In this document: in pieces, positions 33,638-60,533 of the stretch
Layout of the letters: every line of letters starts with the position of its first letter
Numbering within the stretch: the first letter of the stretch is position 1
Assembly: GCF_000219215.1 (NCBI RefSeq)
Contig: NC_015723.1
Location: 682,001-746,000, forward strand
Length of the DNA: 64,000 bases
Source: Cupriavidus necator N-1
GTDB lineage: Bacteria > Pseudomonadota > Gammaproteobacteria > Burkholderiales > Burkholderiaceae
Reading direction: 5' to 3'
Notes under the pieces: generated by a model
Databases searched by the model: none
What the model saw: the letters and a program-made list of their open reading frames with translations, nothing else
Told to the model about the DNA's origin: nothing
Program-made: the position numbers and the translations under genes

Positions 33638-33712
33638 GCGTAGCGCCAGCACATCGTCGTGTCCGGGCCCGCGCACCGCTGGTCCGGACACTATCAGAAT
33701 CAGGAGGCGCGG

Positions 33713-36374: not shown

Positions 36375-36434
36375 GATGTTCAGACCTCTGTAAGACGCGG
36401 CGCCCGGACGGGCCGGGGCCAATGGCTGTGTTGG

Positions 36435-37581: not shown

Positions 37582-37895
37582 CTACCAGTTTCCTTCCGTT
37601 TTCCGTTTTGTCGTCTTGTTGTCCGCTGCCACTACGGATGGCGGCCGCGAATGCTGTTTCGGTCTCTTTTGTGTTTTATATATGAAACATCAAACAACAT
37701 AAGAAACGTTAGGCAAAATATAGCCGTGAGTTTCCACAAGATGTGAGGAGGGTTATCCCTAGTGAGGCGGCGCCACGACGGCTAACGCCGGCTCTGCGCA
37801 CAGGTTTTCGCTCTCCCTATCGTTAACCCTCATCCCGGTTGGACCCCGACACGCCTATGCTTCAAAAGTTTTATTCTCAAACCTAAGTTTTATAT
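37582..37895. other. Divergent gap between porin and hydrolase
   Basis: These 314 bases hold no gene. The left half is AT-rich, with the partial composite operator facing the porin; the right end holds a full composite operator that overlaps the hydrolase start. The middle shows no clear promoter boxes. Confidence 0.5.
37673..37707 (-). promoter_or_regulatory. Partial composite operator before the porin-Bug operon
   Basis: GTTTTATATATGAAAC (37673-37688) is a GTTY-N8-RAAC palindrome. Read toward the porin, a GTTT half-site lies exactly 19 bases upstream, but its partner AAC half is missing, so three of the four half-sites of the composite operator are present. It lies about 92-126 bases before the porin ATG, within promoter range. 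Confidence 0.6.
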
Positions 37896-37902
37896 ATGGA
37901 AC
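37868..37902 (+). promoter_or_regulatory. Composite operator overlapping the hydrolase start codon
   Basis: Two palindromes stand in tandem: GTTTTATTCTCAAAC (37868-37882) and GTTTTATATATGGAAC (37887-37902). The layout GTTY-N7-RAAC-N4-GTTY-N8-RAAC is the same as before the Rieske operon and before the Bug at 56337. The second palindrome contains the hydrolase ATG (37896). An IclR-type protein (from 41776 or 61843) is the likely binder. Confidence 0.72.
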
Positions 37903-38780
37903 AAAATCAGCCTCGCAAGCCAACTGAGCCAGACCGGCAGTTGCTGGAAGCCCTCGACAGCGGGTTTGCCCAGCGCGTGGTGCAGGTGGGCGCGGGCGGC
38001 GAGCGCGTGGCCTACCGCTGCGGCGGGGGCACTGGCCCGGCGGTCGTGCTGCTGCACGGCATCAGTTCCGGCGCGGCGTCGTGGCTGCCGTGCGCGAGCC
38101 TGCTGGCCGCGCACGCGCGGGTGATCGCCTGGGATGCGCCGGGCTATGGCGATTCGTCGCCGCTGGCGCAGGCGCGGCCATTGGCATCTGACTACGCGCA
38201 GCGGCTGGACGGACTGCTGCAGGCCCTGGGCGTGCAGCCGGCGCTGATCGTCGGGCATTCGCTGGGCGCGCTGATGGCGGCGGCCTATGTCGCCAACGCG
38301 CGCCAGCTGCCCGCGCGCCTGCTGTTGCTCAGCGTGGCGCAAGGCTACGGCGGCGCGGGAAGGGAAGCCCAGGCAAGGGAGGTTGCGCGCCAGCGGCTGG
38401 AGGCGCTGGAATCCCTGGGCGTCGATGGCCTGGCGCAACGCGGGCCGGCCCGGCTGCTGAGCGAAGAGGCCGACCCCGGCGCACAGGCATGGGTGCGCTG
38501 GAACATGCAACGGCTGAACCCGGACGGCTACCGGCAGGCGGTGGCGATGCTGTGCGGCGACGACATCCACGCCTACCTGGCGCAGCGCCCCGATGCCTTG
38601 CCCACGCAGATTGCCTGCGGCAGCCATGACGTGGTCACCACGCCGCCCGCCTGCGGCACGCTGGCCGAACGCTTCGGCCTGCCGTTCTCGCTGATCCCCG
38701 ATGCCGGCCACGCCTGCTATATCGACCAGGCCGCCGCCACCGCGCGGCTGATCCGCTCGGTGCTGGACGACATCACCTGA
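37896..38780 (+). CDS. Alpha/beta hydrolase
   Basis: The 294-residue serine hydrolase has the HG oxyanion region (LLHGISSGAASWLP), the nucleophile elbow GHSLG (S122), and acid and base segments IACGSHDVVTTP and DAGHACYID. Members include C-C bond hydrolases of meta-cleavage pathways, lactonases and esterases. The assigned ATG has no ribosome site and lies inside an operator palindrome, so the mRNA may be leaderless or the real start may lie downstream (for example a GTG near residue 31). It faces the Rieske operon and is separated from it by ~250 bases. Confidence 0.82.
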   Translation: MEQNQPRKPTEPDRQLLEALDSGFAQRVVQVGAGGERVAYRCGGGTGPAVVLLHGISSGAASWLPCASLLAAHARVIAWDAPGYGDSSPLAQARPLASDYAQRLDGLLQALGVQPALIVGHSLGALMAAAYVANARQLPARLLLLSVAQGYGGAGREAQAREVARQRLEALESLGVDGLAQRGPARLLSEEADPGAQAWVRWNMQRLNPDGYRQAVAMLCGDDIHAYLAQRPDALPTQIACGSHDVVTTPPACGTLAERFGLPFSLIPDAGHACYIDQAAATARLIRSVLDDIT

Positions 38781-38816
38781 AGCCACCGCGGCGGCGCCTG
38801 CCGCCGCATCCCACGT

Positions 38817-38839
38817 GGTGGCGCGCACCTTGCGCCACC
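38817..38839 (+). terminator. Possible terminator after the hydrolase
   Basis: GGTGGCGC-N7-GCGCCACC forms a strong 8-base stem 36 bases after the stop codon. The following CCTTCCAGATTT is only weakly U-rich, so termination would be partial or Rho-assisted. Confidence 0.4.
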
Positions 38840-38917
38840 CCTTCCAGATTTCGTAGTGCCGATCGCGGGTTAACCCCAGTCAATTTTTGTGGCCGCGTTG
38901 TCTATAGTCGTACCTGT

Positions 38918-38952
38918 GTTCAATATCTAAACCAGTGTTTCATTAGTAAAAC
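38918..38952 (+). promoter_or_regulatory. Composite operator before the Rieske oxygenase operon
   Basis: GTTCAATATCTAAAC (38918-38932) and GTTTCATTAGTAAAAC (38937-38952) repeat the GTTY-N7-RAAC-N4-GTTY-N8-RAAC layout. A possible -10 box TATAGT at 38903-38908 lies just upstream, which would place the operator at or just after the transcription start. The remaining ~80 bases lead to the first gene. Confidence 0.72.
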
Positions 38953-39031
38953 GTAGCCAGGCGATCGCAATACCGGTCGACGCGGCACGCGGAACACGGT
39001 CCCCCCGCTGCAAGACATGGAGCAAAGCGCA

Positions 39032-39337
39032 ATGGAAAGCCTCACGTACAACCCGAACCTGGTGCCCTGGGAGCGTCCGGCGCCGAACAACGTGGCAGGC
39101 AAGGGCCATATCGAGCAACCCGGCAAGGTCGCCAACATCGTCTGGCAGACCCGCGCCGCCGCACCGACCGCCTATGAGAACGCGCTGGGCGATGCCCTGG
39201 AAGCCGCGTTCGAAGGCGGCGCGCAGAACCCGCAGGACATCGTGCGCGCCTTCAACGACGCCGGTTTCCTGGGCGTGGACGGCCAGCGCTGGACCGAAGA
39301 GCGCTTCCTGTCCGAAATGCGCCGGCTGGGTGCCTGA
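39032..39337 (+). CDS. Small conserved protein preceding the Rieske oxygenase
   Basis: The 101-residue soluble protein has no signal peptide. Its first half is Pro/Asn-rich (TYNPNLVPWERPAPNN); the second half is helical and ends QDIVRAFNDAGFLGVDGQRWTEERFLSEMRRLGA. That end resembles the recombinase-type helix-turn-helix seen in small proteins next to ring-hydroxylating oxygenases. I chose the ATG with GGAG nine bases before it; an ATG five codons upstream is possible. It is the first gene of the long operon. It could be a regulator, a chaperone or a small oxygenase subunit; its function is unknown. Confidence 0.75.
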   Translation: MESLTYNPNLVPWERPAPNNVAGKGHIEQPGKVANIVWQTRAAAPTAYENALGDALEAAFEGGAQNPQDIVRAFNDAGFLGVDGQRWTEERFLSEMRRLGA

Positions 39338-39377
39338 GCCCGCCCCAGTCCAAGTCCAGCCTCGAAGCGAGAAAACC

Positions 39378-40439
39378 ATGGAATCGAACAAGCAAGCCCG
39401 CACCGAAGCCCGCCTGAACACCGGCCTGCGCAACTACTGGTACCCGGTCGCCGCCTCGTGGGCGGTGTCCCATGCCCCGATCGGCATCACCCGCCTGAGC
39501 CAGAACATCGTGCTGTGGCGCGACGGCGAAGGCCAGGTCCACGCCCTGGAAGACCGCTGCCCGCACCGAGGCGCGCGCCTGTCGATGGGCTGGAACCTGG
39601 GCGACCGCGTTGCCTGCTGGTACCACGGCGTCGAGGTCGGCGGCGACGGCCAGGTCAAGAGCGTGCCGGCGGTGGAAAGCTGCCCGCTGGAAGGCCGCAC
39701 CTGCGTGCGCAGCTACCCGGTGCAGGAAAAGGCCGGCGCCATCTTCCTGTGGTTCGGCGACCAGGCCCCGCAAGGCGAGGGCAGCCCCGACGAACTGCGC
39801 CTGCCGGAAGAACTGGTCAGCGAAGAACACAGCAACTTCCTGTGCGTGGCGCACTGGGACTGCAACTACCGCTACGCCATCGACAACGTGATGGACCCGA
39901 TGCACGGTGCCTACCTGCATGCGGTGTCGCACTCGATGGCCAGCGGCGAGAAGTCCGCCGTGATGCAGGTGCGCGAGACCGAGCATGGCCTGGTGTTCGA
40001 GAAGACCGGCCAGCGCGGCGTCAATTTCGACTGGGTGGAATTTGGCGAGACCGGCACGCTGTGGCTGCGCCTGGCGATTCCGTACCGCGCCAGTGTCGGC
40101 CCGGGCGGCCCGTTCGGCATCGTCGGCATGGCCACGCCGGTGGATGAAGACCACTGCATGGTGTTCTTCTGGCGTACCCGCCACGTGCAGGCCTGGGAGC
40201 GCGACGTGTGGCGCTTCCTGTATCGCAACCGCCTGGAGCAGCTGCACTGGGACGTGCTGGAGCAGGACCGCGTGGTGCTGGAAATGATGGCCCCGAACGC
40301 GCGCGACCACGAGATGCTGTACCAGCACGACGCCGGCATCACCCGCGTGCGCCGCCTGCTCAAGCGCCGCGCCGAGCAGGAAGTGGCCGACGAGCCCGTC
40401 GCCATGCTGCAACCCGCCGGAGCCGCCAGCCATGCCTGA
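39378..40439 (+). CDS. Rieske non-heme iron oxygenase, alpha subunit (phthalate/vanillate type)
   Basis: The 353-residue protein has the Rieske [2Fe-2S] ligands C61/H63 (CPHRG) and C80/H83 (CWYHG). The mononuclear iron site follows in the DNVMDPMHGAYLH motif (H176 and H181, with a bridging Asp at D173). Length and layout match single-component alpha3 oxygenases of the VanA/phthalate dioxygenase group, which use a VanB-type reductase; one is encoded at 48543-49499. It hydroxylates or O/N-demethylates an aromatic acid. The next gene overlaps its end by 8 bases. Confidence 0.92.
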   Translation: MESNKQARTEARLNTGLRNYWYPVAASWAVSHAPIGITRLSQNIVLWRDGEGQVHALEDRCPHRGARLSMGWNLGDRVACWYHGVEVGGDGQVKSVPAVESCPLEGRTCVRSYPVQEKAGAIFLWFGDQAPQGEGSPDELRLPEELVSEEHSNFLCVAHWDCNYRYAIDNVMDPMHGAYLHAVSHSMASGEKSAVMQVRETEHGLVFEKTGQRGVNFDWVEFGETGTLWLRLAIPYRASVGPGGPFGIVGMATPVDEDHCMVFFWRTRHVQAWERDVWRFLYRNRLEQLHWDVLEQDRVVLEMMAPNARDHEMLYQHDAGITRVRRLLKRRAEQEVADEPVAMLQPAGAASHA

Positions 40440-41205
40440 GGCAAACACCAACAACACCTTGCTGGCCGGGCGCAAGGTGCTGGTCACAGGCGCCGCGCGC
40501 GGACTGGGCCTGGCCTTCGTCAAGGCGCTGGCCGAAGCCGGCGCCACCGTGGCCATGGCCGACATCCTGGCCGAGCGCCTGCAGCAGGAAGCCGACGCCC
40601 TGCGCGCCCGCGGCCTGAAGGTGGTGCCGGTCACGCTGGACCTGTCCGATCCGGCCTCGGTGCAGGCTTGCGCCGAGGCCGCGGTCAAGGCGCTGGGCGG
40701 GCTCGACGGCCTGGTCAACAACGCCGCGGTGACGGATTCCGGCGGCCGTGACGCCGCCACCATCGACATCGCCACCTGGGACCGCGTGATGAACGTCAAC
40801 GTGCGCGGCACCTGGCTGATGACCACCGCCTGCCTGCCGGCGCTGCGCGCCAGCGGCCGCGGCGCCATCGTCAACCTGGCTTCGGACACGCCGCTGTGGG
40901 GCGCGCCCAACCTGCTGGCCTACGTGGCGAGCAAGAGCGCCATCATCGGCATGACCCGGTCGCTGGCGCGTGAACTGGGCAAGGACCAGATCACGGTGAA
41001 CGCCGTGGCCCCGGGCCTGACGCTGGTGGAAGCCACCGAATACGTGCCGCAGCACCGGCACGACCTGTACCGCGAGCAGCGCGCGATCACGCGCGAGCAA
41101 CTGCCCGACGATGTTTGCGGCGCGGTGCTGTTTGCACTGTCCGACCTCGCCCGTTTCGTGACCGGCCAGACGCTGGCGGTCAACGGCGGCTTTGTCATGC
41201 ATTGA
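40432..41205 (+). CDS. Short-chain dehydrogenase/reductase
   Basis: The 257-residue classical SDR has TGAARGLG, NNAA and an intact catalytic set S151-Y164-K168 (SDTPLWGAPNLLAYVASK). Its start lies inside the end of the Rieske gene, so translation is coupled. It may oxidize the cis-diol or alcohol product of the oxygenase. It is followed by a cupin gene 34 bases downstream. Confidence 0.9.
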   Translation: MPEANTNNTLLAGRKVLVTGAARGLGLAFVKALAEAGATVAMADILAERLQQEADALRARGLKVVPVTLDLSDPASVQACAEAAVKALGGLDGLVNNAAVTDSGGRDAATIDIATWDRVMNVNVRGTWLMTTACLPALRASGRGAIVNLASDTPLWGAPNLLAYVASKSAIIGMTRSLARELGKDQITVNAVAPGLTLVEATEYVPQHRHDLYREQRAITREQLPDDVCGAVLFALSDLARFVTGQTLAVNGGFVMH

Positions 41206-41239
41206 ACCAACCGATCCACTGAAAACAGAAGGAATCCAA

Positions 41240-41776
41240 ATGAGCGATCTTTCTCAACCACAAAACATCAAGCGTTCCTGGGACCAGCCGGAGGACGCCT
41301 CGTTCGACCAGTGGATGGAAAGCCGCGTGGCGCGCTTCTCCACGCGCAAGTACGACTGGGACGCGCTGAAGTTCCAGGCCGACTACGACCCCAAGTACCG
41401 CCGCGCGCAGATGCGCTACCTGGGCACCGGCGGCACCGGCGTGGCCGCCGACACCAACACCGTGCCGAGCGAGCATTTCACCTTCTCCACGATGATCATC
41501 CCGGCCGGCCATGAAGGCCCGTCGCATATCCACACCGATGTGGAAGAGGTGTTCTTCATCCTGCGCGGCAAGGTCAAGCTGATCCTGGAAAAGGACGGCG
41601 AGCGCTTCGAGACCATCCTGACCGACCGTGACCTGGTCTCGGTGCCCCCTGGCGTCTACCGCGAGGAAATCAACATCGGCGAGGAAGACGCGCTGATGTG
41701 CGTGATGCTGGGTGCCAAGAAGCCGATCACGCCGACCTACCCGCCCGAGCATCCGCTGACGAAGATCAAGCGCTAA
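41240..41776 (+). CDS. Cupin-domain protein
   Basis: The 178-residue protein has a single cupin core. Motif 1 (G-N5-H96-x-H98-x3-E102-x6-G110) is present in GPSHIHTDVEEVFFILRG. In motif 2 (PPGVYREEIN) the usual His ligand is Arg141. It could be a metal-dependent isomerase or dioxygenase, or a metal-poor binding protein. The ribosome site is GAAGGAATCCAA. The IclR gene begins at its stop codon (TAATG). Confidence 0.83.
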   Translation: MSDLSQPQNIKRSWDQPEDASFDQWMESRVARFSTRKYDWDALKFQADYDPKYRRAQMRYLGTGGTGVAADTNTVPSEHFTFSTMIIPAGHEGPSHIHTDVEEVFFILRGKVKLILEKDGERFETILTDRDLVSVPPGVYREEINIGEEDALMCVMLGAKKPITPTYPPEHPLTKIKR

Positions 41777-42669
41777 TGCCGGCGAACGTCCGTCAGCACG
41801 CATCCACCGAAGCCATGAGCAGCAACCCCATCCCGGCCACGCCCGCCGCCAACGAGACCCCGGACAAGTACATCGTTCCGGGCCTGGAGCGCGGCCTGCG
41901 CCTGCTGAGCGAGTTCAGCAGCAAGGACCGCACCATGTCGGCAGCGGAACTGGCGCGCCGTCTGAAGGTGCCGCGCTCGACCGTGTTCCGCCTGCTGGCC
42001 ACGCTGGAAATGCTGGGCTTTGTGGAACGCGCCGATGGCGGCCGGGATTTCCGGCTGGGCATGGCCGTGCTGCGCCTGGGGTTTGAATACCTGGCGTCGC
42101 TGGAGCTGACCGAGCTGGGCCGCCCGCTGCTGGAGCGGCTGCGCGACGAGATCGGCTACCCCAGCAACCTGGTGGTGCGCGACGGGCGTTCGATCGTCTA
42201 CGTGGCCAAGGCGGTGTCGCCGCGGCCGTTTGCCAGCTCGGTCAACGTCGGCACGCGCCTGCCCGCGCATGCCACGGTGCTGGGGCGCGTGCTGCTGGAA
42301 GACCTGTCGCTGGCGGAGCTGCGCACGCTGTACCCGGAAACGCACCTTGCGGTGTTCTCCGAGAGCACGCCGCGCACGGTCGACGAGCTGCACGAGATCG
42401 TCCAGCGCGACCGCGAGCGAGGCTACGTGTTGCAGGAAGGCTTCTTCGAAGCCAGCATTTCGACCATTGCCGCGCCGGTGCGCGACCGCACCGGCAAGGT
42501 GGTGGCGGCGCTGGGCGCAACCATCCCCGCCGCGCATATCGATCCGGCGCAGCTGGATGCGATGGTGGAGAAGGTCAGGGATACCGCGGGCGAGCTGTCG
42601 CGCCTGCTCGACTACCGCCCGTCGCTGCACAGCAGCGGCGCCAAGGTGGTGAATCTGTATCGGGAGTGA
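41776..42669 (+). CDS. IclR-family regulator of the Rieske operon (paralog 1)
   Basis: The 297-residue protein has an N-terminal winged helix (MSAAELARRLKVPRSTVFRLLATLEMLGFVER) and the IclR effector domain (NVGTRLPAHATVLGRVLL ... GYVLQEGFFEASISTIAAPVRDRTGKVVAALGATIP). By eye it differs at only about 36 of 250 aligned positions from the IclR protein at 61843-62694, and the recognition helix is identical. It is co-transcribed within the operon it probably controls through the composite operator. The start is taken at the TAATG junction; an ATG 13 codons on is an alternative. Confidence 0.92.
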   Translation: MPANVRQHASTEAMSSNPIPATPAANETPDKYIVPGLERGLRLLSEFSSKDRTMSAAELARRLKVPRSTVFRLLATLEMLGFVERADGGRDFRLGMAVLRLGFEYLASLELTELGRPLLERLRDEIGYPSNLVVRDGRSIVYVAKAVSPRPFASSVNVGTRLPAHATVLGRVLLEDLSLAELRTLYPETHLAVFSESTPRTVDELHEIVQRDRERGYVLQEGFFEASISTIAAPVRDRTGKVVAALGATIPAAHIDPAQLDAMVEKVRDTAGELSRLLDYRPSLHSSGAKVVNLYRE

Positions 42670-42674
42670 GGACA

Positions 42675-43478
42675 ATGTCCATGATTGAACTCGGCGGCAA
42701 GGTTGCCGTCGTTACCGGCGGGTCCTCCGGCATCGGGCTGGCGACCGTCGAGCTGCTGCTCGAAGCGGGTGCCGCCGTGGCCATGTGCGGCCGCGACGAG
42801 AGCCGCCTGCGCAGCGCCGAGGCGCAGTTGCGCGAGAAATTCCCCGGATGCCGGCTCTATGCCGCCACCTGCGACGTGCTCAAGCCTGAACAGGTCGCCG
42901 CCTTTGCCGCTGCCGTGCAGGCCACGCTGGGCAACGTCGACATGCTGGTCAACAATGCCGGCCAGGGTCGGGTGTCGACCTTCGCCAACACCGAAGACGC
43001 TGCCTGGATGGAAGAGCTGCAGCTCAAGTTCTTCTCCGTGATCCACCCGACGCGCGCCTTCCTGCCGCAACTGGAGAAGTCAGGCCAGGGCGCCATCGTC
43101 TGCGTCAACTCGCTGCTGGCGCAGCAGCCGGAGCCGCACATGGTGGCGACCTCCGCCGCGCGTGCCGGCGTGCTCAACCTGGTGCGCTCGATGGCCACCG
43201 AGTTTGCGCCCAAGGGCGTCCGCGTCAACGGCATCCTGATCGGGCTGGTCGAATCGGGCCAGTGGCGCCGCCGCTTCGAGGCGCGCCCCGAAGCAGACCG
43301 CCACCTGGACTGGGCCGCATGGACCGCGCGCCTGGCCCAGCAGAAACATATTCCCCTTGGCCGCCTGGGCCTGCCGGTCGAGGCAGCCCGCGCCATCCTG
43401 TTCCTTGCCTCGCCGTTGTCTTCGTACACCACGGGCAGCCATTTCGATATCTCCGGAGGACACTCCCGTCATGCCTAA
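42675..43478 (+). CDS. Divergent SDR-family protein lacking the canonical Tyr/Lys
   Basis: The 267-residue SDR-fold protein has TGGSSGIG and NNAG for NAD(P) binding. The active-site segment reads NSLLAQQPEPHMVATSAARAG, so where Tyr159 and Lys163 are expected there are Thr159 and Arg163; Ser146 remains. A standard alcohol/ketone oxidoreduction is therefore doubtful. It could catalyse a different reaction (for example dehydration or isomerization), or be a binding subunit. It lies between IclR and the ThDP gene, whose start overlaps its stop. Confidence 0.85.
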   Translation: MSMIELGGKVAVVTGGSSGIGLATVELLLEAGAAVAMCGRDESRLRSAEAQLREKFPGCRLYAATCDVLKPEQVAAFAAAVQATLGNVDMLVNNAGQGRVSTFANTEDAAWMEELQLKFFSVIHPTRAFLPQLEKSGQGAIVCVNSLLAQQPEPHMVATSAARAGVLNLVRSMATEFAPKGVRVNGILIGLVESGQWRRRFEARPEADRHLDWAAWTARLAQQKHIPLGRLGLPVEAARAILFLASPLSSYTTGSHFDISGGHSRHA

Positions 43479-45186
43479 TCAACACCAGTACGAACAACAG
43501 CAGGTCACCGTCGGCTGCGCCATCACGGCGTTTCTCGAGCAGTGCGGCGTCAAGGCCGCCTTCGGCGTGATCTCGATCCACAATATGCCGATCCTCGATG
43601 CCATGGGCGAGCGCGGCAAGATCCGCTTCGTGCCGGCGCGCGGCGAAGCGGGCGGCACCAATATGGCCGACGCCTATGCCCGCACCACCGGCGGCCTGGG
43701 CGTATGCCTGACCAGCACCGGCACCGCCGCGGGCAACGCCGCCGGCGCCATGGTCGAAGCGCTGACCGCCGGCACGCCGATGCTGCACATCACCGGCCAG
43801 ATCGAAACGCCGTACCTGGACCAGAGCCTCGCCTACATCCACGAAGCCCCGGACCAGCTCACCATGCTCAAGGCTGTGTCCAAGGCCGCCTTCCGCATCC
43901 GCAGTGCCGACACCGCCATCAGCACCATCAAGCTGGCCGTGCAGACCGCGCTGACGGCGCCGACCGGCCCGGTCAGCGTGGAGATCCCCATCGACATCCA
44001 GGCCGCGCTGATCGACATGCCGGCCGACCTGCAGCCGCTGCCGGTGCCGCAGCACGTGCCGTCGGCGCACGCGCTGGACGCGCTGGCCGAGCGCCTGGTC
44101 AAGGCCAAGCGCCCGCTGCTGTGGCTGGGCGGCGGTGCGCGCCACGCCAGCAAGCAGGTGCAGCGCCTGCTGGACCTGGGCTTCGGCGTGGTCACCAGCA
44201 CGCAGGGCCGCGGCATTGTGCCGGAAGACGATCCCCGCTCGCTGGGTGCCTTCAACCTGCACAAGCCGGTCGAAAACTTCTACCAGACCTGCGATGCGAT
44301 GCTGGTGGTGGGTTCGCGCCTGCGCGGCAATGAAACCCTGAAGTACGAACTGAAGCTGCCGCGCCCGCTGCTGCGCATCGACGCCGACCCAGCCGCCGAA
44401 GGCCGCTGCTACCTGAGCGACTACTTTGTCAGCGGCGACGCCGCGCTGGCGCTGGACGCCCTGGCGGATCGGCTCGAAAAGCGCATGCAGATCGATCCGG
44501 CCTTCGCCGCCGACCTGCGCCGCGCGCACGACACCGCCGTCAACAGCCTGGTCGACGGCCTGGGCCCGTACTCGGCGCTGGTGCAGGCGCTGCAGGGCGC
44601 GGTCGGCCGCAGCTTCAACTGGGTGCGCGACGTGACCGTGTCGAACAGCACCTGGGGCAACCGCCATCTGCGCATCTTCGATTCGCGTGCCGGCGTGCAT
44701 GCGCTGGGCGGCGGCATCGGCCAGGGCCTGGCGATGGGCATCGGCGCCGCGATCGGTGCTGCGGCGACCGCTTCGGGCAAGAAGACGTTCACGCTGGCCG
44801 GCGACGGCGGCTTCATCCTGAACCTGGGCGAACTGGCCACCGCGGTGCAGGAACGCGCCGACATGGTGATCGTGCTGATGAACGACAAGGGCTACGGCGT
44901 GATCAAGAACATCCAGGACGCGCAGTACGGCGGCCGCCGCCACTACGTGGACCTGCATACGCCGGACTACGCCACGCTGGCAAAGTCGCTGTCGCTGCGC
45001 CATGCCCGCGTGAGCAACCTGGCCGAGGTCGACGCCGCGCTGGAAGCGGCCACGGCCGAGTCCGGCCCGTTCCTGCTTGAAATCGACATGCTGTCGATCG
45101 GTTCCTTCAAGACCATCTTTGCCGGCCCCCCGGTGAACAAGGACAACGAAGAGCCGGCGCGCGAACAAACCACTGTCACCGCCTGA
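43471..45186 (+). CDS. Thiamine diphosphate-dependent enzyme (acetolactate synthase/benzoylformate decarboxylase type)
   Basis: The 571-residue three-domain ThDP protein has the cofactor-activating Glu59 (PARGEAGGTNMADAYAR) and the ThDP/Mg motif GDGGFILNLGELATAVQERADMVIVLMND. The central domain (LGGGARHASKQ) fits the ALS/POX family. It could decarboxylate a 2-oxo acid to an aldehyde, which the downstream aldehyde dehydrogenase would oxidize, or cleave or form a C-C bond. It overlaps the preceding SDR by 8 bases and lies 12 bases before the aspartate-dehydrogenase-like gene. Confidence 0.88.
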   Translation: MPNQHQYEQQQVTVGCAITAFLEQCGVKAAFGVISIHNMPILDAMGERGKIRFVPARGEAGGTNMADAYARTTGGLGVCLTSTGTAAGNAAGAMVEALTAGTPMLHITGQIETPYLDQSLAYIHEAPDQLTMLKAVSKAAFRIRSADTAISTIKLAVQTALTAPTGPVSVEIPIDIQAALIDMPADLQPLPVPQHVPSAHALDALAERLVKAKRPLLWLGGGARHASKQVQRLLDLGFGVVTSTQGRGIVPEDDPRSLGAFNLHKPVENFYQTCDAMLVVGSRLRGNETLKYELKLPRPLLRIDADPAAEGRCYLSDYFVSGDAALALDALADRLEKRMQIDPAFAADLRRAHDTAVNSLVDGLGPYSALVQALQGAVGRSFNWVRDVTVSNSTWGNRHLRIFDSRAGVHALGGGIGQGLAMGIGAAIGAAATASGKKTFTLAGDGGFILNLGELATAVQERADMVIVLMNDKGYGVIKNIQDAQYGGRRHYVDLHTPDYATLAKSLSLRHARVSNLAEVDAALEAATAESGPFLLEIDMLSIGSFKTIFAGPPVNKDNEEPAREQTTVTA

Positions 45187-45198
45187 GGGAGACCGGAG

Positions 45199-45999
45199 AT
45201 GCTGCATGTGTCCATGGTTGGCTGCGGCGCGATCGGCCGCGGCGTGATGGAATTGCTCAAGAGCGATCCTGACGTGGTGTTCGACGTGGTGATCGTGCCG
45301 GAGCACACGATGGACGAGGCACGCGACGCGGTCTGCGCGCTGGCGCCGGGCGCCCGCGTGGCGACGCACCTGGACGACCAGCGTCCCGACCTGCTGGTCG
45401 AGTGTGCCGGCCACCATGCGCTGGAAGAGCACATCGTGCCGGCGCTGGAGCGCGGCATCCCGTGCATGGTGGTGTCGGTGGGCGCGCTGTCCGAGCCCGG
45501 CATGGCCGAGCGGCTGGAAGCGGCGGCGCGCCGCGGCGGCACGCAGGTGCAGCTGTTGTCGGGTGCGATCGGCGCGATCGATGCGCTGGCCGCGGCGCGT
45601 GTCGGCGGGCTGGATGAAGTGATCTACACCGGCCGCAAGCCGGCTCGCGCCTGGGCCGGCACGCCGGCCGAGCAGCTCTTCGACCTGAATGCGCTGACCG
45701 AGGCGACCGTGATCTTCGAAGGCACGGCACGCGACGCGGCGCGCCTGTATCCCAAGAACGCCAACGTGGCCGCCACTGTGTCGCTGGCAGGCCTGGGGCT
45801 GGACCGCACGTCGGTGAAGCTGCTGGCCGACCCGCATGCGGTGGAGAACGTGCATCACGTGGAGGCGCGAGGCGCTTTCGGCGGCTTCGAGCTGACCATG
45901 CGCGGCAAGCCGCTCGCGGCCAACCCCAAGACTTCCGCGCTGACGGTGTTCAGCGTGGTGCGCGCACTGGGCAACCGCGCGCACGCGGTATCGATCTAG
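45199..45999 (+). CDS. L-aspartate dehydrogenase-like protein
   Basis: The 266-residue protein has an N-terminal Rossmann motif GCGAIGRG (residues 8-15) and the aspartate dehydrogenase domain (LLSGAIGAIDALAAARVGGLDEVIYTGRKP; PKNANVAATVSLAGLGLD). Characterized homologues interconvert L-aspartate and oxaloacetate plus ammonia using NAD(P). Here it sits inside a ring-oxidation operon rather than with NAD synthesis genes (nadA/nadC), so it may handle an amino- or imino-acid intermediate or release ammonia from the ring substrate. The ribosome site GGGAGACCGGAG is very strong. Confidence 0.86.
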   Translation: MLHVSMVGCGAIGRGVMELLKSDPDVVFDVVIVPEHTMDEARDAVCALAPGARVATHLDDQRPDLLVECAGHHALEEHIVPALERGIPCMVVSVGALSEPGMAERLEAAARRGGTQVQLLSGAIGAIDALAAARVGGLDEVIYTGRKPARAWAGTPAEQLFDLNALTEATVIFEGTARDAARLYPKNANVAATVSLAGLGLDRTSVKLLADPHAVENVHHVEARGAFGGFELTMRGKPLAANPKTSALTVFSVVRALGNRAHAVSI

Positions 46000-46039
46000 T
46001 CCCGGCAGCCACGCCCTACAGACTTAGCAGGCAACGACA

Positions 46040-47518: not shown

Positions 47519-47541
47519 ACCCGGCAGGCTGGAGAGAAGCA

Positions 47542-48516
47542 ATGATCAAGGTATTGGGGATCGACGAGATCGTCTACGGCGCGGATGACTTTGACGCCTG
47601 CCGTGGCTTTTTCACCGACTGGGGCCTGGCCATCAAGCGCGACGACGCGCAGGGCCTGGATTTCGAAACGCTCAACGGCTGCCGCGTGCTGGTGCGCCGC
47701 ATCGACGACGCCACGCTGCCGCCCGCGATCGAAGCCGGCCCGACGCTGCGCGAAGTGGTGTGGGGCGTGGACTCGCAGGCCTCGCTGGACCAGCTCGCCA
47801 AGACGATTGCCGACGCACCGGGCTTCGTGAAGCAAGGCGAGGGCGATACGATGCGCATCGGCTGCACCGACCCGAACGGCCTGGCCGTGCGTTTCCAGGC
47901 CACGCGCAAGCATGACGTGCAGGTCGAATGCGCACTGATGAACACGTGGAACGACAAGCCGCGCCTGAACCAGCGCAGCCCGATCTACGACCACGCCACC
48001 CCGATCGAAGTGGGCCACGTGGTGTTCTTCGTCAAGGACGTCAAGGCCACGGAGCGCTTCTATGTCGAGAAGTTCGGCTTCGTGCCGTCGGACCGCTATC
48101 CGGACCGCGGCGCCTTCCTGCGCTGCACGCCCGAAGGCGGCCACCACGACCTGTTCCTGCTGCAGCTGCCGGAACCCAAAAGCGGCCTGAACCACGTCGC
48201 CTTCACCGTGCGCGACATCCATGAAGTCTTCGGCGGCGGCATGCATGTCTCGCGCAAGGGGTGGGACACGCAGCTCGGCCCGGGCCGGCACCCGATCTCG
48301 TCGGCCTACTTCTGGTACTTCAGGAACCCGGCCGGCGGCCTGATCGAGTACTACGCCGACGAAGACCAGCTGGACGAACACTGGGAGCCGCGCGCTTTCG
48401 AGCCGGGGCCGACCATGTTCGCCGAATGGGCGATCGAAGGCGGCATCGACGGCAACACCCGCCGCCAGAAGAACGCGGGCGGACCGGCAGGCAAGTTCCT
48501 GACCGAGAAGCGGTAA
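47542..48516 (+). CDS. Vicinal oxygen chelate (extradiol-type) dioxygenase
   Basis: The 324-residue protein has two VOC modules. The second keeps the type I extradiol iron ligands H159 (IEVGHVVFF), H218 (LNHVAF) and E269 (GGLIEYYAD), plus a conserved HPISSAYFWYFRNPAGG segment. The first module lacks the ligands, as in catechol 2,3-dioxygenases. It is the likely ring-cleavage enzyme of the operon, acting on a catechol or a hydroxylated hetero-ring. The start follows GGAGAGAAGCA. Confidence 0.87.
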   Translation: MIKVLGIDEIVYGADDFDACRGFFTDWGLAIKRDDAQGLDFETLNGCRVLVRRIDDATLPPAIEAGPTLREVVWGVDSQASLDQLAKTIADAPGFVKQGEGDTMRIGCTDPNGLAVRFQATRKHDVQVECALMNTWNDKPRLNQRSPIYDHATPIEVGHVVFFVKDVKATERFYVEKFGFVPSDRYPDRGAFLRCTPEGGHHDLFLLQLPEPKSGLNHVAFTVRDIHEVFGGGMHVSRKGWDTQLGPGRHPISSAYFWYFRNPAGGLIEYYADEDQLDEHWEPRAFEPGPTMFAEWAIEGGIDGNTRRQKNAGGPAGKFLTEKR

Positions 48517-48542
48517 GTCAGCAGCAATCGAAGGAAGCAGCA

Positions 48543-49499
48543 ATGAGTGCCCACCAGTCCCTGACCCTGCGCGTCCACGCCATGCGCTATGAAGCGCGCG
48601 GCGTGGTCAGCATCGAACTGCAAGATCCCGAAGGGAAGACCCTGCCCGAGTACAGCCCGGGCGCCCATATCGACCTGCACCTGGGCAACGGCCTGGTGCG
48701 CAGCTACTCGCTGTGCGGCGCGCCCGAAGCGCGCCAGCGCTATACCGTGGGCGTGCTGCTGGACCGCGGCAGCCGCGGCGGTTCGCGCTACGTGCATGAG
48801 CAGCTGCGCGTTGGCACCACGCTGACCGTGGGGGCGCCGCGCAACAACTTCGCCCTGGACGAAAGCGCCGCGCACACCGTGCTGGTCGCCGGCGGCATCG
48901 GCGTGACGCCGATCGTCTGCATGGCGCGCCGGCTGGCCGAACTGGGCAAGTCGTTCACGCTGATCTACTGCGCCCGTTCGCGTGCCGAGGCCGCATTCGT
49001 CGAACAGCTGTCGGCCCATGGCGATGCAGTGCGCTTTCACTTCGACGACGAGGCCGGCGTGCCGCCGGACTTGAACGCGATGCTGGCCGGCCAGGACCCG
49101 CAGACGCACTTCTACTGCTGCGGCCCCGGCCCGATGCTGAAGGCGTTCGAGGCTGCCTGCGAAGCGCATAGCTACCCGAACGTGCACATCGAGCGCTTTG
49201 CCGCCGATCCCTCGACCGAGGCGGTGCAGGAAGGCGAGTACACCGTGTCGCTGTCGCGCACCGGCACCACCGTCAAGGTGCCGTCCGGCAAGTCGCTGCT
49301 GGACGCGCTGCTCGATGCCGGCGTACAGATGGACTACAGCTGCCGCGAAGGCGTGTGCGGCTCGTGCGAGACCGCGGTGCTGGAAGGCTGCCCCGACCAT
49401 CGCGACAGCGTGCTCAGCAGCAGCGAGCGCGCCAGCAACAAGACCATGATGGTGTGCGTGTCGGGGTGCAAGGGCAGCAAGCTGGTGCTCGACCTGTAA
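48543..49499 (+). CDS. VanB-type oxygenase reductase (FMN/NADH/2Fe-2S)
   Basis: The 318-residue electron-transfer protein has the flavin motif RSYSLCG (~53-59), the NAD motif VLVAGGIGVTPI (~114-124) and a C-terminal plant-type ferredoxin with C267, C272, C275 and C305. It is the expected partner of the single-component Rieske oxygenase at 39378-40439. It has the phthalate dioxygenase reductase domain order. The start follows GAAGGAAGCAGCA. Confidence 0.93.
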   Translation: MSAHQSLTLRVHAMRYEARGVVSIELQDPEGKTLPEYSPGAHIDLHLGNGLVRSYSLCGAPEARQRYTVGVLLDRGSRGGSRYVHEQLRVGTTLTVGAPRNNFALDESAAHTVLVAGGIGVTPIVCMARRLAELGKSFTLIYCARSRAEAAFVEQLSAHGDAVRFHFDDEAGVPPDLNAMLAGQDPQTHFYCCGPGPMLKAFEAACEAHSYPNVHIERFAADPSTEAVQEGEYTVSLSRTGTTVKVPSGKSLLDALLDAGVQMDYSCREGVCGSCETAVLEGCPDHRDSVLSSSERASNKTMMVCVSGCKGSKLVLDL

Positions 49500-49533
49500 T
49501 CCTGCCGCACAGCCTTTGGACACCGATGGTGTT

Positions 49534-49645
49534 CCCCTCTCCCCTCATGGGGAGAGGGCAGGGTGAGGGGTGGTTTGGCAAGGCACCACGCCACCAGAAC
49601 CGCCGCCCCTCACCCCTGGCCCCTCTCCCGCATGCGGGAGAGGGG
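49534..49645. repeat. REP-like compound palindrome
   Basis: Two strong palindromes bracket the element: CCCTCTCCCC-TCAT-GGGGAGAGGG (49535-49558) and a 26-base perfect palindrome at 49620-49645 centred on GCATGC. Inside, AGGGTGAGGGG and CCCCTCACCC are inverted copies of each other. This is the layout of a BIME/REP-type extragenic repeat. It lies between the reductase and permease genes and may reduce downstream expression or stabilize the upstream mRNA. Confidence 0.75.
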
Positions 49646-49696
49646 AGCAAACCTCCCGCATGCCGGGCCGCCCCAAGAATCAAACCGAGACATCCC

Positions 49697-51157
49697 GTGC
49701 TGACCCAGAGACAAGACGCAGCGTCCCCCGGCGCACCGGTGGCCGCCACCGCAGGTATCGTGACCACGGCTGACAGCGCCGGCCAGAGCGCAGCGGCGGC
49801 CCGCAGCGGCCCGCTCACGCGCGGCAATATCGTTGCCCGCATCGAGCGCATGCCGGGAAACGCCATGCATATCCGCGCCCGGTTGCTGATCGGCCTGGCC
49901 ACCTTCTTCGATGGCTTCGACGTGATCGCCATCGCCGCCACGCTGCCGCTGCTGATCGCGCAGTGGTCGCTCACGCCGGGCCAGATCGGCTTTCTGATCG
50001 CGGCGCCGTCGGTCGGCCAGTTGGTCGGGGCGCTGCTGTTCCCGGGGCTGGCCGAGCGCTTCGGCCGGCTGCGCTCGATCGGCTGGAGCGCGGGCATCAT
50101 CGGGCTGATGAGCCTGGCCTGCGGCTTTGCCCCGTCGTTCGAGATCTTCGCGCTGCTGCGCATCGTGCAGGGCCTGGGCCTGGGCGGCGAACTGCCGGTG
50201 GCGGCCACCTATATCAACGAGGTCACGCGCGCCCATGGGCGCGGGCGCTTCGTGCTGCTGTACGAGGTGGTGTTCCCGATCGGGCTGATGGTGTCCAACG
50301 GCATCGGCGCCTGGCTGGTGCCGCACTACGGCTGGGAGCTGATGTATTTCATCGGCGGCGTGCCGCTGGTGCTGTTCTTCATCCTGCGCCGCGTGATCCC
50401 GGAATCGCCGCGCTGGCTGGCCGAGAAGGGCCGGCTGGACGAGGCCGATGCCGCGCTGTGGGCCTTCGAGGCGCGCGCCAGGACGCCGCTGCCGCCGCTG
50501 GGCGACACCAGCGCCTACGAACGCATGGCACAGCACCCGCGCCGCCGCGTGCGCGACCTGGTCAGCAAGCCCTATATCGGCCGCACGCTGGCGGTGTGGA
50601 TGCTGTGGGCAACCTGCGGCTTTATCCAGTACGGGCTGTCGACGTGGCTGCCCACGGTCTACAAGACCGTCTACCACGCGCCGCTGCAGCTGGCGCTGAA
50701 CCTCGCCGCCGGCGCCTCGGTGCTGGGCGTGGTCGGTTCGCTGGTGTGCGCGATGATTGTGGACAAGGTCGGGCGCAAGCCGGTGATCAATGTGTCGTTC
50801 CTGCTGTGCGCGCTGTCGCTGGTGCTGGCGGGGGTGTTCCACGCGTCGAACGTGTATGTGGTCGCGACCCTGTGCGCGCTGGCGATGGGGTTCCTGGCCA
50901 GCGGCTTCATCACCGCCTATGTCTATACGCCGGAACTGTATCCGACCAGCGTGCGGGCGATGGGGTGTGGGCTGGGTGGGGCGTGGCTCAAGCTGGCGGC
51001 GATCTTCGCGCCGGGGCTGATTGCCAGCACCATCGGCAGTGGTGATCTCAGCATTGCCTTCTTCGCGCTGTCCGTGGTGCCCGCGCTGGCGGCTGTCACG
51101 GTACATTTCCTTGGGATTGAGACCAAGGGCCGCGTGCTGGAGGAGCTGGAGGTCTGA
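49697..51157 (+). CDS. MFS aromatic-acid:H+ symporter (AAHS family)
   Basis: The 486-residue permease has twelve predicted membrane spans after a ~55-residue cytoplasmic leader. The diagnostic DGFDVIAIAATLPLL lies in span 1, and R-F-G-R-L-R and ESPRWLAEKGR/ETKGR-type motifs recur, as in PcaK/BenK-like carriers. The start is probably the GTG after GAGACATCCC; reading further upstream would run through the REP element. It is the last gene of the catabolic operon and would import the aromatic substrate. Confidence 0.87.
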   Translation: MLTQRQDAASPGAPVAATAGIVTTADSAGQSAAAARSGPLTRGNIVARIERMPGNAMHIRARLLIGLATFFDGFDVIAIAATLPLLIAQWSLTPGQIGFLIAAPSVGQLVGALLFPGLAERFGRLRSIGWSAGIIGLMSLACGFAPSFEIFALLRIVQGLGLGGELPVAATYINEVTRAHGRGRFVLLYEVVFPIGLMVSNGIGAWLVPHYGWELMYFIGGVPLVLFFILRRVIPESPRWLAEKGRLDEADAALWAFEARARTPLPPLGDTSAYERMAQHPRRRVRDLVSKPYIGRTLAVWMLWATCGFIQYGLSTWLPTVYKTVYHAPLQLALNLAAGASVLGVVGSLVCAMIVDKVGRKPVINVSFLLCALSLVLAGVFHASNVYVVATLCALAMGFLASGFITAYVYTPELYPTSVRAMGCGLGGAWLKLAAIFAPGLIASTIGSGDLSIAFFALSVVPALAAVTVHFLGIETKGRVLEELEV

Positions 51158-51185
51158 ACGGGCGTTGCTCGTCCCGTTCCCTTGG

Positions 51186-51220
51186 GGGCTGCACCGTGAT
51201 CCGGTGCAGCCCTTTTTCTT
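51186..51220 (+). terminator. Intrinsic terminator of the catabolic operon
   Basis: GGGCTGCACC, loop GTGATCC, GGTGCAGCCC form a perfect 10-base stem directly followed by TTTTTCTT. It lies ~30 bases after the MFS stop and faces the convergent Bug pseudogene. Confidence 0.92.
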
Positions 51221-51232
51221 TGCGCCGGAAGC

Positions 51233-52190: not shown

Positions 52191-52315
52191 GGGTTGTCTC
52201 CGTTTCTCTCTTTATGTACCTGGACGATGGGGGCATCGTTGCGGGGGCTTCTGGCCTGCCTCTGGTGGGCGGAATGCCTTACAGCATGTGCGGGGCAACG
52301 TGGCGGCGCGTGCCG

Positions 52316-54372: not shown

Positions 54373-54508
54373 GTCGGGGGCTCCTCCGTGTTTTGCGTAG
54401 CGTGCAGTGGTTGGGTTCGATCTGTGTTCGATCCCGTGAGCCCAGTCTAGCGGCGTGCCCTATCATTAGAAAAGCGAACTTATTTGAGTTACTTCATAAG
54501 ATTTTTTG
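54373..54508. promoter_or_regulatory. Divergent LysR / dioxygenase promoter
   Basis: This 136-base gap is AT-rich near the LysR start. The inverted repeat CTTAT-N12-ATAAG at 54479-54500 ends eight bases before the LysR ATG, which is a suitable place for autoregulation. No ribosome site is visible before that ATG, so the LysR mRNA may be leaderless or poorly translated. Confidence 0.45.
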
Positions 54509-55408
54509 ATGAAAATTGAGACCTTCCATACGCTTGAGGGCGTGCTGCAGACCGGCACCTTCGCCGGCGCCGCGCGTCAGGCCAACGTCACCCCCAGCGC
54601 TGTCAGCATGCAGATGAAGCAGCTTGAGCAGTACCTGGGCAAGCCGCTGTTCGACCGCTCCGGGCTGCAGGCGCGGCCCAACCAGCTCGCGCGCGAGGTG
54701 GCCGACACCATGCGCCAGGCACTGCAGAACCTGGAAGCGCTGCGCTCCGGAAGTGGACTGGCGGTGGAGGGGGTAGTGCGGCTGGGGGTGATCGAGTCGC
54801 TGCAACCGGTCGTGCTGCCCGGCATCGTGCGCTATGTGCGCGAGCGCCATCCCAGGCTGGAACTGCGGCTGGTGCGCGGGCGCAGCAGCACGCTGACGGC
54901 ATCGGTCAAGGCAGGCGACATCGATGCGGCGCTCGTGGCGCAGCCGGCAGCCGGCGGTTCGGCGCGGCTGCGCTGGACCCCGATGATGCGGCGCGAACTG
55001 ATGCTGATCGCACCACCCGCGTCCACCGAGACCAACGTGGCCTCGCTGTTCCGCCTGTACGACTGGATCCGCTACGACCGCAATACCGTGTCCGGGGCGA
55101 TGGCGGCGCAGTACGTGCATGCGCACGTGTCCGAAATCCGCGGCACGCTGGAGTTCGACAGTGCGCCGGCGATCGTGGCAATGGTCAGTGCCGGGCTGGG
55201 GGTGTCGATCCTGCAGGGGCCCGACCCGACGCTGGTGCAAAACTACCCGGTGCGGCTGGTGCGGCTGGGCCGCTCGGCGCCGGTGCTGACCCTGTCGCTG
55301 GTGACGCGCAAGGGGGATGACGACAACCGCTCGGTGGCGGCTGTGCGTGACGCCATGCGGCTGACGCTGGCCTCGTACCAGCGCCAGAGCGTGGCAGCGC
55401 GCCACTGA
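54509..55408 (+). CDS. LysR-family transcriptional regulator
   Basis: The 299-residue protein has the LysR winged helix (MKIETFHTLEGVLQTGTFAGAARQANVTPSAVSMQMKQLEQYLG) and an effector domain of the CysB/BenM fold. It diverges from the TauD / lyase / Bug operon and is its likely activator. The upstream sequence lacks a ribosome site. It is followed by ~90 bases and then a convergent MarR gene. Confidence 0.9.
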   Translation: MKIETFHTLEGVLQTGTFAGAARQANVTPSAVSMQMKQLEQYLGKPLFDRSGLQARPNQLAREVADTMRQALQNLEALRSGSGLAVEGVVRLGVIESLQPVVLPGIVRYVRERHPRLELRLVRGRSSTLTASVKAGDIDAALVAQPAAGGSARLRWTPMMRRELMLIAPPASTETNVASLFRLYDWIRYDRNTVSGAMAAQYVHAHVSEIRGTLEFDSAPAIVAMVSAGLGVSILQGPDPTLVQNYPVRLVRLGRSAPVLTLSLVTRKGDDDNRSVAAVRDAMRLTLASYQRQSVAARH

Positions 55409-55500
55409 GGCGGCGGGAGTGAAGGCCGGGTTGGGGTGCCCGGCAAACGCTGGCTGTGGCGGCTCCGGGCGAGCAAGTCGTCCGGAAGCCGCTTTCCTTG

Positions 55501-56019
55501 TCAGGCCTGCGCGCGCAACAGCTTGCGCAGCCCCTGGTAGACCGCTTCGCGCTCCTCTGGCGACAACTGCCGTATCACCTGCGCCTGCCCCCGCCGCGCC
55601 AGCGGCATCACCTGGTCGTGCAGTGCCGCACCAGCTTCGCTGATCGCACAGATCAGCTTCTTGCGCGGCGTGTTGCCGGCCGAAGTCAGCTGCACTAGCC
55701 CCCGTTCCTCCAGCAGCCGCAGCGTGCGGCTCACCAGCGCCTTGTCCGAGGTCGATTGCGTCACCAGCTCGGCAAACGGCAGCTCGCGCGCGTGCGCCAG
55801 CAGCGCCAGGATGCGCCACTCCGGCACGGTCAGGCCGAACTGTTCCGCATAGGGCTTGGTCACCGTGCTGCGCAGCGCGGTGACCAGCTGGCTCAGCATC
55901 GTGGTCAGGAAATTGTCGACGGTCAGGCCGCTGCCGGCCTCGTCGAGGTCGGTCCACGGGCTGGTGATGTCGGTGTCTGGCGCGGGCTGGCCCTTGGCGG
56001 GCGCGGCGTCACGGGGCAT
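55501..56019 (-). CDS. MarR-family transcriptional regulator
   Basis: The 172-residue protein has the MarR winged helix (VPEWRILALLAHARELPFAELVTQSTSDKALVSRTLRLLEERGLVQ) and flanking dimerization helices. I chose the ATG after AAGAGGA. It diverges from the Bug/molybdenum-hydroxylase operon; a perfect palindrome GTCAATATTGAC lies in the shared gap. It is a candidate second regulator of that promoter, besides the IclR proteins. Confidence 0.9.
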   Translation of the reverse strand: MPRDAAPAKGQPAPDTDITSPWTDLDEAGSGLTVDNFLTTMLSQLVTALRSTVTKPYAEQFGLTVPEWRILALLAHARELPFAELVTQSTSDKALVSRTLRLLEERGLVQLTSAGNTPRKKLICAISEAGAALHDQVMPLARRGQAQVIRQLSPEEREAVYQGLRKLLRAQA

Positions 56020-56180
56020 GCGTTCCTCTTGATCGGGTCTGCCGGCCGTCATGCGGGGCCGGTTTGCGGGCCAGATTGTCTCACAGCCGCTAGCCAATTC
56101 CGCCACCGTGTGTCGCTTTCACGGCAACGGGCAAGTCTAAAAAATTACCATGTCAATTGGTATTTAACGTAAGTTGAGTT

Positions 56181-56192
56181 GTCAATATTGAC
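56181..56192. promoter_or_regulatory. Palindrome GTCAATATTGAC, candidate MarR operator
   Basis: A perfect 12-base palindrome lies 18 bases before the composite operator and ~160 bases from the MarR start. The short perfect palindrome in the shared divergent promoter fits MarR dimer binding; this is inferred. Confidence 0.5.
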
Positions 56193-56209
56193 GACCTAGG
56201 ATTAATAAC

Positions 56210-56244
56210 GTTCCTGATGTGAACGTACGTTTTACTAATAAAAC
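56210..56244 (+). promoter_or_regulatory. Composite operator before the Bug/molybdenum-hydroxylase operon
   Basis: GTTCCTGATGTGAAC (56210-56224) and GTTTTACTAATAAAAC (56229-56244) repeat the GTTY-N7-RAAC-N4-GTTY-N8-RAAC layout. The second palindrome matches the reverse complement of that at 38937-38952 at 15 of 16 positions. It lies ~92 bases before the Bug ATG. Confidence 0.74.
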
Positions 56245-56336
56245 AACCAAAAGTGTTGTAACCCGAGCCAACCCTGTTTTCGCGGTGCGCAAAACAGCCC
56301 ACTCCAACCGCGAATGCGCCCCCACAGGAGCTGTTG

Positions 56337-57329: not shown

Positions 57330-57373
57330 CGCACCGCATCGCATTCATGCAACCAGACAAGCAGGAGGCCGGC

Positions 57374-60524: not shown

Positions 60525-60533
60525 GGAGTCCTC

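Follow-up and report, generated by a model that had tools for sequence, protein, structure and literature searches.

Tandem palindromes with centres 18–22 nt apart (mainly 19–21) have been reported for 94 groups of IclR regulators (Suvorova and Gelfand 2021, PMC8222616). That paper, citing Lu et al. 2010, describes one IclR protein, TtgV, as binding its operator in tetrameric form. We describe a 35-bp composite of this type, GTTY-N7-RAAC-N4-GTTY-N8-RAAC, in a 64,000-nt stretch of Cupriavidus necator N-1 (NC_015723.1, positions 682,001–746,000; the whole stretch is called the window in what follows) that encodes a set of probable catabolic operons. Sequence comparison makes it highly probable that the composite is the operator of an IclR regulator encoded in the same locus, duplicated in Cupriavidus as IclR1 and IclR2. 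A real, well-conserved single regulon linked to IclR is, on the same footing, a well-supported prediction.

The locus resembles the published tandem operators in its GTTY...RAAC half-sites, in palindromes of 15–16 bp with centres 19–19.5 bp apart, in their position near a start codon and in the kind of system, catabolic regulons that span between one and a few operons (PMC8222616). Unlike those operators, the first palindrome here has an inner half-site that floats by one base in a fixed register, and a single set of operators probably serves both paralogous regulators. Compared by eye with the Group 1 IclR consensus GKTYCRYW3-4RYGRAMC, the outer GTTY and RAAC of the composite agree, and the inner CR and YG are mostly absent from its A/T-rich centre.

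The pattern scan of the window found the exact composite at 37868–37902, 38918–38952 and 56210–56244 (operators A, B and C), each on the plus strand, as the original prediction had it. No other exact match occurs in the window, and the mean over 100 window shuffles is 0.00. A scan of the complete genome had been proposed as a check; in all 8,480,857 bases only these three sites match exactly and the reversed pattern does not match, and the composite is not common at unrelated loci of the genome or of the genus. At two or fewer mismatches the genome has 12 matches, a number that counts the three sites themselves as well as re-readings of two of them, and the controls have 14, so the signal resides in the exact form.

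Three promoters had been claimed. All three sites stand, and the count rises to four with operator D, a weaker copy on the minus strand 5′ of the divergent porin-Bug operon. Operator D scores 33.5 with a weight matrix built on 26 distinct exact sites, D sites not being in the training set, compared with a maximum of 6.1 in 12 random 64-kb sequences. The sites do precede the hydrolase, Rieske and Bug-molybdenum units, with the refinement that operator A encloses the hydrolase ATG and that operator B is followed first by an HTH_62 gene. The score is 20 or higher for operators A, B and D alike in all 23 named Cupriavidus-group loci (one A site being degenerate), and for operator C in all five named loci with a scorable promoter; the maximum among control windows (n = 230, plus strand) is −4.9. 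These 23 loci are 21 from named Cupriavidus, one from a Ralstonia sp. and one from a Burkholderiaceae bacterium. They overlap the 60 genus genomes considered below, and the A–C sites of several are in the matrix while their D sites are not.

Operators A–D differ in sequence and keep the 19-bp register constant. The inner half-site of the first palindrome shifts by one base, or is lost, while that rigid register stays fixed. Of the original description, palindromes of 15 and 16 bp starting 19 bases apart, the register is general and the 15+16 asymmetry is not: Pseudomonas loci have two 16-bp palindromes with a 3-bp spacer, and Variovorax has both forms. The constants of the composite are the 19-bp step and the 35-bp length. 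Palindrome centres are 19.5 nt apart in Cupriavidus and 19 nt apart in Pseudomonas, inside the 18–22 nt of tandem operators.

Across the genus the exact composite occurs at 80 sites in 43 of 60 genomes, with no control matches. For all but one of these sites (79/80) an IclR1 or IclR2 gene is at most 7 kb away; the remaining one is on a contig without such an IclR gene, in a genome that is 78% complete. IclR1 or IclR2 (E up to 1e-40) is present in 48 of the 60 genomes, and an exact site is found in 43 of those 48 versus none of the 12 without these IclRs (Fisher p = 4e-9). Because site presence tracks the IclR genes in this way, the site is tied to the IclR regulon, which bears out the single regulon with IclR paralogs that had been envisaged.

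To look beyond the genus, relatives were collected by a scan with an alignment of the thiamine-diphosphate-dependent enzyme, and the best 80 of 198 loci were kept. On both strands these contain 34 exact and 56 one-mismatch composites, compared with none and one for the reversed control. An outgroup locus was scored as having the site when, 5′ of the orthologous operon, there was a composite that kept the 19-bp register, had N7 or N8 in its first palindrome and departed from the pattern at no more than one position. Among 57 outgroup loci, four of them not assessable, 29 of 53 have it: 4/4 in Pseudomonas, 23/24 in Variovorax and 2/4 in the Acidovorax/Polaromonas/Xylophilus/Lampropedia set. With the 23/23 loci of the Cupriavidus group, this answers the suggested comparison with related genomes: the site is conserved before orthologous operons. 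In a scan of 398 genomes of the family, 25 outside the genus match. Nineteen of these, from two other genera, share one related sequence, GTTCGTCTCCTGAACATTGGTTCGAGTAATGGAAC and its variants, and the other six compare with 22 control genomes. Among 248 genomes from the rest of the order, a slightly relaxed pattern matched 10 and the reversed control 17. The composite is thus not common by itself.

Both candidate regulators belong to the IclR family. IclR1 has HTH_IclR (PF09339) and IclR_C (PF01614) above cut-off, and IclR2 matches IclR subfamily models and solved IclR-family chains, among them a TtgV chain (2xrn, E 1.3e-10). Residues Pro46, Arg47, Ser48, Thr49 and Arg52 of the TtgV helix correspond to P, R, S, T and R here (PMC8222616), and Gln51 of TtgV is Phe. 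TtgV differs further in controlling efflux pumps, not a degradation pathway. The helix PRSTVFRLL is invariant among the 41 copies of 21 genus genomes, and 12 of the 16 outgroup copies have it too. In this genome IclR1 and IclR2 are equal at 67 of 75 positions of the DNA-binding part and 151 of 185 positions of the rest. Of the 48 genomes that have at least one copy, 45 retain the pair; two of the other three are incomplete. The best NCBIfam model for both is TIGR02431 (PcaR/PcaU/PobR), at 184.6 bits for IclR2 and 177.2 bits for IclR1. Membership of that subfamily was rejected, as both scores are below its curated cut-off of 284.75 bits. A plausible role in aromatic catabolism and GTTC-type half-sites are further likenesses to PcaR, PcaU and PobR, but no beta-ketoadipate genes were recognised in the present regulon, and PcaU requires three boxes (PMC8222616) where there are four here, three in operator D.

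Every operator is preceded by a −10-like hexamer (Table 1), conserved at A, B and D, with similar hexamers seen by eye at C in relatives. Each composite starts 6–9 nt past the hexamer, so the composites would span about +1 to +35. Conservation is concentrated in them: at operator B (26 distinct sequences) the composite has 1.82 bits per position versus 0.43 downstream, at operator C (18 sequences) 1.41 versus 0.60, and at operator A (16 sequences) 1.73 versus 0.93, where the downstream part is coding. A further element, GTTWACCC, is conserved at 37822–37829 and 38869–38876 and starts exactly 34 nt 5′ of the −10-like hexamer at both A and B; it could be an activator site.

From the observed geometry, conservation, genome specificity, co-occurrence, fourth site and position past the −10-like hexamer, we infer binding, a tetramer, repression, an inducer and joint use of the sites by both paralogs, together with operon limits drawn from strand and spacing. 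Two IclR dimers would bind, one per palindrome, about two helical turns apart on the same face of the DNA, as a tetramer. Covering roughly +1 to +35, this tetramer would most likely block transcription of four units: porin-Bug; the hydrolase; the Rieske/ring-cleavage operon, 12 genes long and including IclR1; and the Bug/molybdenum-hydroxylase operon, which includes IclR2. By our own count these would hold 22 genes. A substrate or intermediate of the pathway would release IclR, and both IclR genes would be autoregulated. For IclR2 the stretches fetched from 21 relatives bear on this point. Molybdenum-hydroxylase genes are in the stretch in ten, absent in ten, and G016 differs; in seven of the ten without them operator C lies within about 150 nt of IclR2. 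Autoregulation of IclR2 is indicated, because operator C adjoins it where the molybdenum genes are absent.

A bolder extension is that the near-identical paralogs, with their common recognition helix, share the four operators as mixed tetramers. The two effector domains would respond to different metabolites, for example the molybdenum-hydroxylase substrate and a ring-cleavage intermediate, and a single 35-bp operator would integrate two signals. We consider this doubtful.

Several observations weigh against the proposed regulon or its mechanism. Five of the 48 IclR-bearing genomes have no exact site: G053 and G016 have one-mismatch sites instead, G009 and G012 degenerate sites only, and G047 is 54% complete. 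Genomes that show co-occurrence inside one genus are not each independent evidence. In the Herbaspirillum group (12 Herbaspirillum loci and nine from Collimonas, Massilia, Duganella-type and other bacteria) the strict site precedes the orthologous operons in 0 of 21 loci; in ten of these there is a form with at most one mismatch whose spacing or orientation differs. In three of the ten relatives without molybdenum genes there is no site before IclR2 among the six best matches listed per stretch. The column footprint of operator C shows no conserved −10 and its spacing varies, and a scan for the sigma-70 consensus gave no full match at the A, B and C promoters. In the tree, both IclR copies lie inside the Cupriavidus clade and IclR1 and IclR2 each need two label changes, not one; a single duplication would be compatible with these sequences. 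The GTTCGTCTCCTGAACATTGGTTCGAGTAATGGAAC-type site, found in genus g11 (L033, L042) and in similar form in g13, lies between pobA (4-hydroxybenzoate 3-monooxygenase) and a divergent LysR gene in the two loci read, L033 and L042, model scores being for L042 only. Because the same pattern sits there, the composite pattern alone is not specific to IclR. Finally, IclR proteins can be activators, and the position of the sites is what suggests repression by IclR. BhcR, for instance, is an IclR protein that activates its catabolic genes according to the excerpted text of PMC11323563.

This last point makes an activator the most serious competing explanation: the sites would still be IclR operators, with IclR acting mainly as an activator or as a dual regulator like PcaU, PobR and BhcR. 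The absence of a good −35 at A and B, and the GTTWACCC element upstream of both, speak for it along with BhcR. All four composites, however, start downstream of the −10-like hexamer, which would place the tetramer over +1 to +35. Activators usually bind upstream. We therefore think this explanation unlikely, although it deserves more weight than any that assigns the sites to another regulator. Of these, the MarR-family regulator has the best claim. Its gene, which the original prediction did not mention, adjoins operator C; the protein has MarR domains (PF12802, PF01047) and weak similarity to HpaR (34.6 bits, cut-off 121.2), and a MarR gene is present in 19 of the 21 fetched stretches and in 48 of the 60 genus genomes. 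Those are not the same 48 that have IclR. Genomes G017, G021 and G041, which have MarR but lack the IclRs, are devoid of the site even when one mismatch is allowed. Conversely, there is no MarR match in G016, which has an IclR and two one-mismatch sites, or in G045 (78% complete), which has an exact site. Where the MarR gene is elsewhere in the genome (G027, G028, G046 and G053) the sites remain beside the IclR genes, and no MarR match occurs in the 57 outgroup loci, 29 of them with the site. The composite follows IclR and not MarR, because MarR and site presence are uncoupled across genomes; the MarR protein was rejected as the regulator of the sites, and the chance that they belong to it is small. 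It could be a second input to operon C.

The LysR-type regulator encoded between operons B and C, or another regulator from outside the locus, is a still poorer candidate, even with a site of the same pattern beside a LysR gene at pobA. The LysR gene occurs in 3 of the 21 fetched stretches and 2 of the 80 named loci (not all of which extend to its place), against operators A, B and D in 23 of 23, and site presence tracks the IclR genes. As it is so rarely present in relatives, this LysR protein was rejected as regulator of the sites. We give equally little credence to a role of the composite at the RNA level, where it would form a pair of small hairpins in the 5′ leader. The composite lies just downstream of a −10-like hexamer and would therefore be transcribed, and one terminator-like match overlaps operator C (0.6 expected). 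Yet it is bases and not pairings that are kept: the first palindrome of operator B has C against A at the fourth pair in the B sequences listed. The register is held while the inner half-site shifts by one base, and the arms are short and A/T-rich. RNA hairpins were rejected on the lack of pair conservation in operator B. That the likeness of the sites reflects nothing but shared recent ancestry or chance is hardly credible. All genus examples do descend from one locus, but the composite of operator B far exceeds its downstream sequence in conservation, operators A–D differ in sequence yet hold the register, the same register lies 5′ of orthologous operons in Variovorax and Pseudomonas, and in the order the pattern does not exceed its reversed control.

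Features of the locus are collected in Table 1.

Table 1. Predicted operators, promoter-like elements and genes of the locus, by position in the window
Feature	Position	Strand	Remarks
Operator A	37868..37902	+	15-bp and 16-bp palindromes in 19-bp register; encloses hydrolase start codon (ATG 37896–37898)
Operator B	38918..38952	+	5′ of Rieske/ring-cleavage operon
Operator C	56210..56244	+	5′ of Bug/molybdenum-hydroxylase/IclR2 operon
Operator D	37673..37707	-	5′ of divergent porin-Bug operon; second palindrome intact, inner half-site of first lost
−10-like hexamer TATGCT	37856..37861	+	6 nt 5′ of operator A; conserved CTAT..T
−10-like hexamer TATAGT	38903..38908	+	9 nt 5′ of operator B; conserved CGTTGTCTATAGTCGTACCTGT
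−35/−10-like pair TTGAGT-N17-TAGGAT	56174..56202	+	7 nt 5′ of operator C
−10-like hexamer TATATT	37717..37722	-	9 nt 5′ of operator D; present in D-type sequences
AMP-binding enzyme	33659..35296	+	
Bug/TctC-type binding protein	35382..36422	-	PF03401; synteny; downstream of porin
Gram-negative porin	36487..37581	-	PF13609; synteny; first gene past operator D
Alpha/beta hydrolase	37896..38780	+	PF00561
HTH_62 (recombinase-like HTH) small protein, 106 aa	39017..39337	+	PF20552; first gene of operon B; conserved in fetched relatives
Rieske oxygenase, VanA-type C-terminal domain	39375..40439	+	PF00355, PF19112; start estimated within open reading frame 39174–40439
Short-chain dehydrogenase 1	40432..41205	+	PF13561
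Cupin-domain protein	41192..41776	+	PF07883
IclR1 transcription regulator	41698..42669	+	PF09339, PF01614; true start probably internal
Short-chain dehydrogenase 2	42666..43478	+	PF00106
Thiamine-diphosphate-dependent enzyme	43468..45186	+	NF005470; start estimated within open reading frame 43357–45186
Aspartate-dehydrogenase family protein	45199..45999	+	NF009827, above cut-off
Aldehyde dehydrogenase	46040..47518	+	
Extradiol-dioxygenase-like protein	47353..48516	+	Glyoxalase/dioxygenase superfamily
Flavin/[2Fe-2S] oxidoreductase	48261..49499	+	Likely Rieske partner; true start probably internal
MFS transporter	49355..51157	+	True start probably internal
LysR-type regulator	54506..55408	+	Between operons B and C
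MarR-family regulator	55501..56019	-	PF12802, PF01047; divergent from operon C, adjoins operator C
Bug/TctC binding protein	56334..57329	+	First gene of operon C
Molybdenum hydroxylase, large, FAD and [2Fe-2S] subunits	57326..61010	+	
CoxG-like protein	60955..61740	+	PF06240
IclR2 transcription regulator	61801..62694	+	83–84% identical to IclR1 over core
Bug/TctC binding protein	62691..63749	+	Last gene of operon C

The extent claimed for the regulon was about 20 genes and 22 are counted here, but not every gene along the way would belong to it. The block 51233–55408 (Bug, ICL-like and TauD genes on the minus strand and LysR on the plus strand) contains no composite, and its genes are present in 3 of the 21 fetched relatives; lacking a site and patchy in presence, it was rejected as a member. 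The molybdenum-hydroxylase operon is an optional module, in 10 of 21 relatives. Minus-strand open reading frames at 54494–55957 (its LysR part) and 32702–35371 have no Pfam match and are probably spurious, lying opposite the LysR and AMP-binding genes; the upper end of the former overlaps the MarR gene. Past operon C, a third IclR gene on the opposite strand (G000:C1:745757–746578) runs over the right end of the window. Its product is 35% identical to IclR2, and similar genes are at the same place in several relatives.

One aromatic substrate for the whole regulon is plausible from its enzymes: the Rieske oxygenase, whose best solved match is dicamba O-demethylase, the extradiol-like dioxygenase, the aldehyde dehydrogenase and the hydrolase are suited to hydroxylating and cleaving a ring, and an aromatic or N-heteroaromatic compound would be in keeping with the molybdenum hydroxylase. 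Among the literature matches listed for this enzyme set and gene cluster, or for Pseudomonas aeruginosa locus tags, we recognised no named pathway, nor does any description of this regulon figure among those listed for it. The riboflavin/lumichrome pathway of Nocardioides has a similar enzyme mix, but it is set apart by its description, in the excerpted text of PMC12746152, with a two-protein thiamine enzyme and a P450. In PMC6449761, on aromatic regulons of Betaproteobacteria, the words 'Rieske' and 'aspartate dehydrogenase' are absent from the main text.

Relatives of the degradation cluster are found in Cupriavidus, Variovorax, Herbaspirillum-type bacteria and Pseudomonas. Most outgroup loci have one IclR gene in the fetched stretch, in the order short-chain dehydrogenase 1, cupin, hydrolase, IclR, short-chain dehydrogenase 2, thiamine enzyme; a Pigmentiphaga stretch has two IclR genes. 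In Cupriavidus a separate operator serves the hydrolase and IclR is duplicated, with G016 retaining the single-copy arrangement. In G016 (L055, 6095–6619), with this single IclR and no MarR match, a second site stands before a molybdenum-hydroxylase-type [2Fe-2S] subunit gene of a different kind (39% identity), so the regulon may have acquired a molybdenum hydroxylase on more than one occasion.

Composites were also seen apart from the IclR pair. A one-mismatch composite, GTTTCTGCGTCAAAC-N4-GTTTCAGCRATGCAAC, is conserved in three relatives without the pair (G026, G029 and G034; L075–L077), and no clear adjacent regulator was recognised in the L075–L077 neighbourhoods. The sole one-mismatch composite elsewhere in the N-1 genome (G000:C1:1708760–1708794, minus strand) is directly 5′ of a TIGR00366-like transporter gene (below cut-off), and genome G009 has a composite-like site about 230 nt past another IclR gene. 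These last two possibly mark a second IclR regulon of the same geometry.

The outcome is a predicted regulon of about 22 genes that has a defined promoter architecture, with two candidate regulators for its four predicted operators. As a new example of an already known type of bacterial control it is well supported, and present understanding is not overturned. The regulon suggests a system in the course of rebuilding, because the hydrolase has its own operator copy, the regulator is duplicated and, in 10 of the 21 fetched relatives, a molybdenum-hydroxylase module lies between the predicted autoregulatory operator and its regulator gene. For the IclR family more widely, binding sites can usefully be sought by the rule that an inner half-site may float while the register is fixed.

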